This document shows, piece after piece, positions 12,373 through 12,929 of a stretch of 39,497 nt of DNA; positions within the stretch are counted from its first letter, which is position 1; each line of letters opens with the position of its first letter. Where the stretch lies: assembly GCA_002787095.1 (NCBI GenBank), contig PCVW01000003.1:16777-56273 (forward strand), in the 5' to 3' direction. Under the pieces are notes generated by a model. That model did no database searches and was not told the DNA's origin. It worked only from the letters and a program-made list of their open reading frames with translations. Position numbers and translations under genes: made by a program. This DNA comes from Candidatus Omnitrophica bacterium CG11_big_fil_rev_8_21_14_0_20_64_10. GTDB taxonomy: Bacteria > Omnitrophota > Gorgyraeia > 1-14-0-20-64-10.

Positions 12373-12454
12373 GGGCGGATGGCGGAACTGGTAAACGCGC
12401 GGGATTTAGGATCCCGTCCCGAAAGGGTTGGAGGTTCGACTCCTCTTCCGCCCA
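12373..12454 (+). tRNA. tRNA-Leu(TAG), class II
   Basis: GGGCGGA/TCCGCCC acceptor, anticodon loop TTTAGGA, long variable arm, T-loop TTCGACT. Confidence 0.95.
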
Positions 12455-12603
12455 CGCTTTCGTAGGGGAAGAGGAGTCGAAGGGAGCCGCGACTTTATTG
12501 AGGAGGGACCGACGGATAGGAGGTCCCGACTTCCTTAGGAGCGGCGGGTGGCCGACCCGGAGCCCCGAAGGGGCGAAGGGCGCCGACTCCTCTTCCGCCC
12601 ACG
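12437..12603 (+). repeat. tRNA-tail element 1: tRNA-Leu 3' end, inverted copy, structured core, direct copy of tRNA-Leu 3' end
   Basis: CGACTCCTCTTCCGCCCACG at 12437-12456 and again at 12584-12603 (20/20); inverted GGAAGAGGAGTCG at 12467-12479. Confidence 0.9.
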
Positions 12604-12691: not shown

Positions 12692-12764
12692 GCGGGTGTA
12701 GCTCAGTTGGTAGAGCGCCACGTTGCCAACGTGGTTGTCGTGGGTTCGACTCCCATCACCCGCT
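12692..12764 (+). tRNA. tRNA-Gly(GCC)
   Basis: GCGGGTG/CACCCGC acceptor, anticodon loop TTGCCAA, T-arm GTGGG-TTCGACT-CCCAT, discriminator U. Confidence 0.95.
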
Positions 12765-12929
12765 CAGTTTTGGAATGTTGGTGAGGGGAGTCGAAGTGAG
12801 CCGCGGCCGGCCGAAGGCCGAGCTGGGCTGGTCCGAATGGTTGAGGACCAGCGAACCGAAGCCGCGGCGAGTGGCCGACCCGAAGTCAGCCGGAGGCTGA
12901 CGGAGGGCGCCGACTCCCATCACCCGCTC
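12747..12929 (+). repeat. tRNA-tail element 2: tRNA-Gly 3' end, inverted copy, structured core, direct copy of tRNA-Gly 3' end
   Basis: CGACTCCCATCACCCGCTC at 12747-12765 and 12911-12929 (19/19); inverted GGTGAGGGGAGTCG at 12780-12793 (13/14 match). Confidence 0.9.

Follow-up and report, generated by a model that had tools for sequence, protein, structure and literature searches.

A family of short non-coding units in the Omnitrophota carries, on either side of a shared core, arms that match the tRNA gene behind which each unit stands, and this observation is real and general. Our preferred reading, to which we give a probability of about 0.6 on the strength of sequence comparisons, is that these units are a mobile non-coding cassette of tRNA 3' ends with arms copied from the target, probably by fold-back synthesis from the T-loop, and that recombination amplifies or removes them. 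Two of the units lie in the window, the 39,497-nt stretch of a Candidatus Omnitrophica bacterium genome (GCA_002787095.1) analysed here, where the gap between tRNA-Leu(UAG) and tRNA-Gly(GCC) is 237 nt and each gene is accompanied by a unit of like design with its own arms (Table 1). A preliminary description had claimed an exact repeat of the tRNA-Gly tail at 12911, an inverted copy that fits tRNA-Gly, and core blocks common to both units, and all three claims are borne out. The tail, CGACTCCCATCACCCGCTC, occupies 12747-12765 and recurs exactly at 12911-12929, a 19-nt repeat for which the chance probability at such a distance is about 1e-9. The inverted arm of element 2, GGTGAGGGGAGTCGAA, can pair with 12745-12760 at 15 of 16 positions, and a single covariance model finds both units, at 12469-12594 (67 bits) and 12783-12921 (56 bits).

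Table 1. Features of the two units in the window and of their host tRNA genes
Feature	Position	Strand	Evidence or remark
tRNA-Leu(UAG), host of element 1	12373..12455	+	ARAGORN
Element 1 tail copy 1, within tRNA-Leu	12437..12455	+	tail-copy scan
Element 1 inverted arm GGAAGAGGAGTCGAA, 15/15 to tRNA-Leu	12467..12481	+	inverted-repeat match
Element 1 core	12482..12583	+	covariance model, 67 bits over 12469-12594
Element 1 tail copy 2, 19/19 direct	12584..12602	+	repeat search
tRNA-Gly(GCC), host of element 2, own 3' end complete	12692..12765	+	ARAGORN; Rfam RF00005, 72 bits
Element 2 tail copy 1, within tRNA-Gly, T-loop C56 to +1	12747..12765	+	repeat search
Element 2 spacer	12766..12779	+	native 3' flank duplicate in young insertions elsewhere
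Element 2 inverted arm, pairs with tRNA-Gly T54-C69 (15/16)	12780..12795	+	inverted-repeat match
Element 2 core: GTGAGC, helix P2 with insert, conserved box, helix P3, GGCGC	12796..12910	+	alignment, covariance model
Element 2 conserved box GTGGCCGACCCG, 5' strand of helix P3, bulged C and A	12871..12882	+	alignment
Element 2 tail copy 2, exact direct copy of 12747-12765	12911..12929	+	repeat search

The source genome (1.73 Mb in 73 contigs) was scanned by comparing the 420 nt 3' of each of its 41 tRNAs with the last 26 nt of that tRNA, leaving the core sequence unused. A unit is present behind 10 of the 41 (Gly-CCC, Leu-UAG, Gly-GCC, Trp, Gln-UUG, Arg-CCG, Ala-CGC, Ser-GGA, Leu-CAG and Leu-GAG). 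C56 of the T-loop, plus or minus one nucleotide, is the first position of the direct copy, which is exact over 18-20 nt in nine of the ten; the Leu-GAG unit is decayed and keeps a copy of 12 nt. The inverted arm is 10-15 nt long and lies 7-38 nt 3' of the tRNA. Elsewhere in this genome (G000:C5:10138-10283, or L014:1406-1551) a unit with a tail ending in CCCGTTGGGGACGCCA follows a tRNA-like sequence in an advanced state of decay, which may once have been a tRNA-Glu. The window also holds, at about 1101-1842 on the forward strand, a CAT-anticodon tRNA gene split by a group I intron (RF00028, 67 bits, 1544-1760) with an ORF of the PDDEXK_5 endonuclease family (1139-1690, E 4.6e-44), and this arrangement resembles the cyanobacterial tRNA-fMet intron with I-SspI.

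The same agreement between arms and neighbouring tRNA is found across the phylum in a set of 139 non-redundant Omnitrophota units. Entry into this set required at least 12 matches out of 18 between the tail copies, and the weight therefore rests on the swapped-partner control and on the unbiased scans of 41 tRNAs and of 84,980 species. In 89% of the units the direct copy is free of mismatches over the 11 nt that follow the generic CRANTCC, compared to 0.3% when partners are swapped, and the 5 nt of the inverted arm beyond its generic part give 3.18 matches out of 5 compared to 1.70 after swapping. At position 57 the tRNA, its inverted arm and copy 2 all agree in 124 of the 139 units, and at position 59 in 132. 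The identity of copies 1 and 2 stays at 0.95-1.0 up to position 73, then falls to 0.78 and to about 0.45 in the flank, while the agreement of the inverted arm is 0.88-0.98 up to position 63 and decays beyond. Usually the inverted arm extends from T54 to about position 63, reaching the acceptor stem only sometimes, and its specificity thus lies mostly in positions 57, 59 and 61-65. These controls lead us to reject chance or the generic T-arm consensus as the source of the match, an objection that the preliminary description had itself raised: it fails for the direct copy and, within the inverted arm, for those positions that vary between tRNAs (57, 59, 61-65).

A unit consists, in order, of the native tail from C56, a spacer of 10-60 nt, the inverted arm, a core of about 70-115 nt and the direct tail copy, and the tRNA stays intact, its own end being duplicated. 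The core boundaries at T54 and C56 are exact. The boundary in the flank is variable, which could in part reflect truncated tandem units; some units are tandem (L127, L294 and L302), and their copy number varies. In young insertions, among them L304, L136, L151 and L297, the repeat extends beyond the tRNA by 12-23 nt of flanking sequence and ends at the inverted arm. An alignment of 43 sequences gives a single fold of three covarying helices, in which 17 of 28 pairs are kept with changes on both sides. P1 is formed by the inverted arm and copy 2, P2 is long and very variable, and P3 pairs GGCCGACC with GGCGCC, with a bulged C and A and invariant inner pairs. A T-box-like resemblance of the conserved box (GGGTGGNNNACC) was dropped, given that this stretch pairs with GGCGCC in P3. 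P3 is capped by a GNA triloop in 43 of 105 units, compared to 5.5% in shuffles, and d(GCGAAGC) is a famously stable DNA hairpin; for these two reasons a single-stranded DNA form of the unit is plausible, with an RNA form also possible. At L302:617-807 and L263:1850-2120 there are extra hairpin domains with the recurring loop motifs CGAGANGGTGAG and GCGACNNATNGGAGC, which look like modular insertions in P2.

The distribution of the units was determined with a core pattern run over 84,980 species, in which the tail part held only the generic letters CRANTC, so that it selects the T-loop consensus and not tRNA-specific nucleotides. It matched 75 stretches, and the real ones are nearly all from genomes named Candidatus Omnitrophota, with additional ones in TA06 and Ratteibacteria bins. 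Directly 3' of a tRNA there are 52 matches, of which 49 carry at least 15 exact nt of the tail of their own tRNA (20-21 nt where CCA is encoded), and the isotypes concerned are Ser, Pro, Ala, Arg, Thr, Trp, Met, Val, Gly, Leu, Glu, Lys, Gln and Tyr. The remaining matches fall at contig edges, belong to decayed copies or arose by chance in coding DNA of high GC content. A strict pattern matched 47 of 384 Omnitrophota genomes and its reversed control none. The covariance model, for which E-values are rough, matched 42 of 117 sampled Omnitrophota genomes, a patchy distribution, and gave only two weak matches (26-28 bits) in 11 unrelated genomes. All the Omnitrophota data are metagenome bins, in which contig edges and missing genes weaken claims of absence. 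The repeat-to-repeat length is 84-292 nt, too short for a gene, and the units contain no integrase gene, there being no room for one. A viral, phage or plasmid origin was rejected, as the Omnitrophota type of unit has no match in 2.9 million viral contigs, phages or plasmids. A known RNA family was rejected as well: the Omnitrophota core has no match in Rfam, and RF00391 finds nothing in the window nor, with E allowed up to 5, in five element loci. In a Ratteibacteria bin (L117, about 2000-2200) a core without a tRNA stands between copies of a longer dispersed repeat (GGCAGTGGTTAGTGATTAGTGA...), which suggests that units have recombined into other repeats.

The closest known counterpart is the rtT repeat of Escherichia coli and its relatives (RF00391). 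At tyrT-tyrV it consists of the tRNA-Tyr tail, a spacer, the inverted arm GGGGAAGGAT, a core and then AATCCTTCCCCCACCACCA, and it thus resembles the Omnitrophota units in having a structured core between an inverted arm and a direct tail copy, in the comparable length of that copy (18-19 nt) and in forming tandem units; the string CGACCCGAAGGGCG can occur in both kinds of core. The units of E. coli and Providencia score 47-138 bits with RF00391. Cores of this family also stand behind tRNA-Lys (E. coli, Providencia) and tRNA-Pro (E. coli, Klebsiella, Salmonella), and in each of these both arms, inverted and direct, are those of the tRNA in front. The two kinds also differ. The tail copy of rtT starts 2-3 nt later, at position 58-59 instead of 56, its inverted arm spans the whole T-arm with the loop GAGAA, and the core sequences are different. 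The design is therefore the same but homology is unproven, because the Omnitrophota covariance model has no match in the rtT locus and RF00391 misses the Omnitrophota units.

RF00391 is carried by 4710 of 5426 E. coli genomes, at 1-11 places. Strain M10 has exact empty sites, compared to which MG1655 is longer by 175 bp at tyrT and by 534 bp (3 x 178) at tyrV; the native flanks resume in MG1655 after the last tail copy, with one base different in the tyrT flank. A 175-bp change in rtT copy number is also on record between Salmonella Paratyphi A strains (PMC2658671). The literature further reports that rtT RNA is released from tRNA transcripts and is implicated in amino-acid limitation, and that RtT-family RNAs occur near Asn and Lys tRNAs in Pasteurellaceae (PMC4986893). 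At lysQ, the MG1655 record leaves a unit unannotated (L350:2184-2309, NC_000913 781683-781808, RF00391 46.7 bits), and isolate LP26-E1-261 has two tandem units. The annotated tpr ('protamine-like protein', L343:1088-1177) lies wholly within an rtT unit and may not be a real protein gene.

The preliminary description had argued that duplication of a single element is insufficient to explain the units and had left it open whether the arms are copied from the target or coevolve with it. The first point is upheld and simple duplication is rejected, since units with near-identical cores in one genome carry different arms that fit. The Thr-GGU and Trp units, 2 kb apart, have cores 98.1% identical over 107 nt and tails alike in only 8 of 18 positions; the Lys-UUU and Leu-CAG units have cores 96.7% identical over 92 nt, and the Leu and Ser units 96.4% over 111 nt, in both cases with different arms. 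In each of these pairs both arms of each unit fit its own tRNA. For that reason we favour copying over coevolution, and we conclude from the comparisons that each insertion remakes both arms from its target. Alleles of one locus with and without the unit, a comparison that had been proposed, exist both in E. coli and in Omnitrophota. The orthologous tRNA-Arg(CCG) locus of one genus is empty in G399, G402 and G404, filled in G395 and G401 and decayed in G403, with a further filled relative, 99% identical, cut by a contig end. Position 57 of this tRNA is G in G395 and A in G401, and both arms agree with it in each.

Several other readings have to be weighed against copying from the target. The units could be old RNA genes, inherited vertically behind tRNAs, with arms that drift together with the tRNA under selection: the core would need its closing helix P1, made of the inverted arm and copy 2, while recombination between the repeats keeps copy 2 like copy 1. 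The compensatory changes in P1 (columns 8-124 and 10-122) fit such a history, as do the homogenised tandem arrays and the Trp, Tyr and Val units that keep 21 exact nt in related species while their cores are 6-15% different. Even so we consider it improbable as the origin of the arms, given that gradual change cannot yield 2-4 differences in the core next to about 10 of 18 in the arm, with an inverted arm to match, within one genome; units are also present or absent at orthologous loci, and recent transfers of cores between tRNAs with re-made arms are found. Coevolution could still have a part in maintaining old copies. Somewhat less probable still is that the units are a useful tRNA-linked small RNA module of the host, spread by recombination, along the lines of the stringent-response claim for rtT. 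Their common orientation directly behind tRNAs, the strongly conserved core and the reported release and role of rtT RNA would suit a host function. It is harder to reconcile with the patchy occurrence in the sampled Omnitrophota genomes, the missing units at tyrT and tyrV in M10 and the many decayed copies, and by itself it leaves the re-making of the arms unexplained.

Site-specific integration of a gene-less satellite by a tyrosine integrase of the T-loop class is very unlikely in our view, though integrases of this class classically have as their att block a repeat that runs from the T-loop to the 3' end and restores the tRNA, the tail repeats of the units would serve as attL and attR, and insertion in E. 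coli is precise. A fixed attP would suit one tRNA, whereas here one core serves nearly every isotype, and the units, of about 50-300 nt without genes, also carry a matched inverted arm and in their Omnitrophota form are unmatched among the viral, phage and plasmid sequences mentioned above. About as improbable, or slightly more so, is an RNA intron or ribozyme that is spliced or processed out, which would make copy 2 the real 3' end of the tRNA. The conservation of the bulged P3 and the covarying junction could be read this way, and so could a tRNA-Ser(CGA) copy that is split at the T-loop and keeps its inverted-arm hairpin through paired changes. However, copy 1 completes the tRNA in nearly all cases, a normal tRNA is retained where copy 2 has decayed, and E. 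coli tRNA-Tyr is made with copy 1. The split tRNA-Ser(CGA) is kept in related genomes (L263:1501-2140, also L264 and L265), the changes in the arm hairpin being TTC to CTG and GAA to CAG, and in L263 and L264 it is succeeded after 47 nt by an intact tRNA-Ser that has a unit of its own, which also speaks against an intron. A self-splicing intron in tRNA-Ser at L135, L137 and L152 was rejected in the same manner: the intact tRNA-Ser and unit 47 nt downstream point to a tandem duplicate.

For copying from the target we can propose a route, in which the fold-back step is inferred from the products. These look like a hairpin of inverted X, core and X set in the flank, where X would be a stretch of the target that starts in the T-loop and has no fixed end. 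The antisense strand would be opened in the T-loop (T54-C56) and the core joined to it or primed from it. With the two ends of the folded core side by side, synthesis could turn and run back along the same target strand, and the resulting hairpin would have a stem of target sequence and the core as its loop. Joining this hairpin into the flank would then give the inverted arm, the core and the second tail in one event. Recombination between tails could subsequently produce arrays, amplification and the exact loss of units. Empty sites may be such losses through the direct repeats. Unit and tRNA would probably share a transcript, from which 3' processing would free the unit, in line with published reports on rtT RNA. 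In its most general form, the proposal is that a gene-less hairpin cassette enters any tRNA T-loop, that fold-back on the target strand builds both arms, and that rtT is a second branch, independent or very distant; we hold this version tentatively, at somewhat less than even odds. A reverse transcriptase, as in a retroelement or group II intron, was rejected as the mover, and a Y1 transposase of the IS200/IS605 or REP-RAYT kind seems improbable in that role, as their presence across carriers is inconsistent. Among the carrier genomes, which are incomplete, a profile search found no match to RVT_1 in 17 of 20, and the Y1 transposase is present in many but was not found in the element-rich G395, G397, G398 and G018.

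Comparison with other known systems helps to define what is new. The islands, prophages and satellites that target tRNAs through T-loop class integrases share with the units a direct repeat of the tRNA 3' end from the T-loop that restores the tRNA. The Omnitrophota units are unlike them in having no integrase, no cargo, an inverted arm and a very small size, and in using all isotypes; an att-type repeat specific to one tRNA family is not what we see, as one core family stands behind nearly all of them. Casposons and CRISPR adaptation (Cas1) also duplicate the target on insertion, can grow into array-like tandems and in some archaea target tRNA 3' ends. By their usual description, though, casposons differ from the units in having terminal inverted repeats of their own and no inverted copy of the target. 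MITEs, REP and BIME sequences are likewise small, non-coding, hairpin-forming and present in many copies, but their ends belong to the element, whereas both arms of the unit belong to the target. In the literature that we searched, a scope that leaves the original rtT paper outside, we found neither arms matched to the host tRNA nor an inverted arm with the target as its source, and the Omnitrophota family does not appear there. For rtT a direct copy of the tail was known before; what seems to be new is the agreement of both arms with the host tRNA and the Omnitrophota family, and possibly the insertion mechanism itself is new as well.

These findings turn the long-known puzzle of the E. coli tyrT repeat into a testable class: cassettes in two phyla with ends that are rewritten for each tRNA. 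Known tRNA-targeting integrases carry one fixed tRNA end, in contrast to the present case in which the target supplies both arms. The 'RtT sRNA' annotations may then mark mobile units and not single regulators. MG1655, with its Tyr, Lys and Pro units, and M10, with its empty Tyr sites, offer a laboratory system for the fold-back step. If this step is true it would be an undescribed insertion mechanism, one in which the tRNA is never damaged and the element is not tied to any one tRNA sequence.
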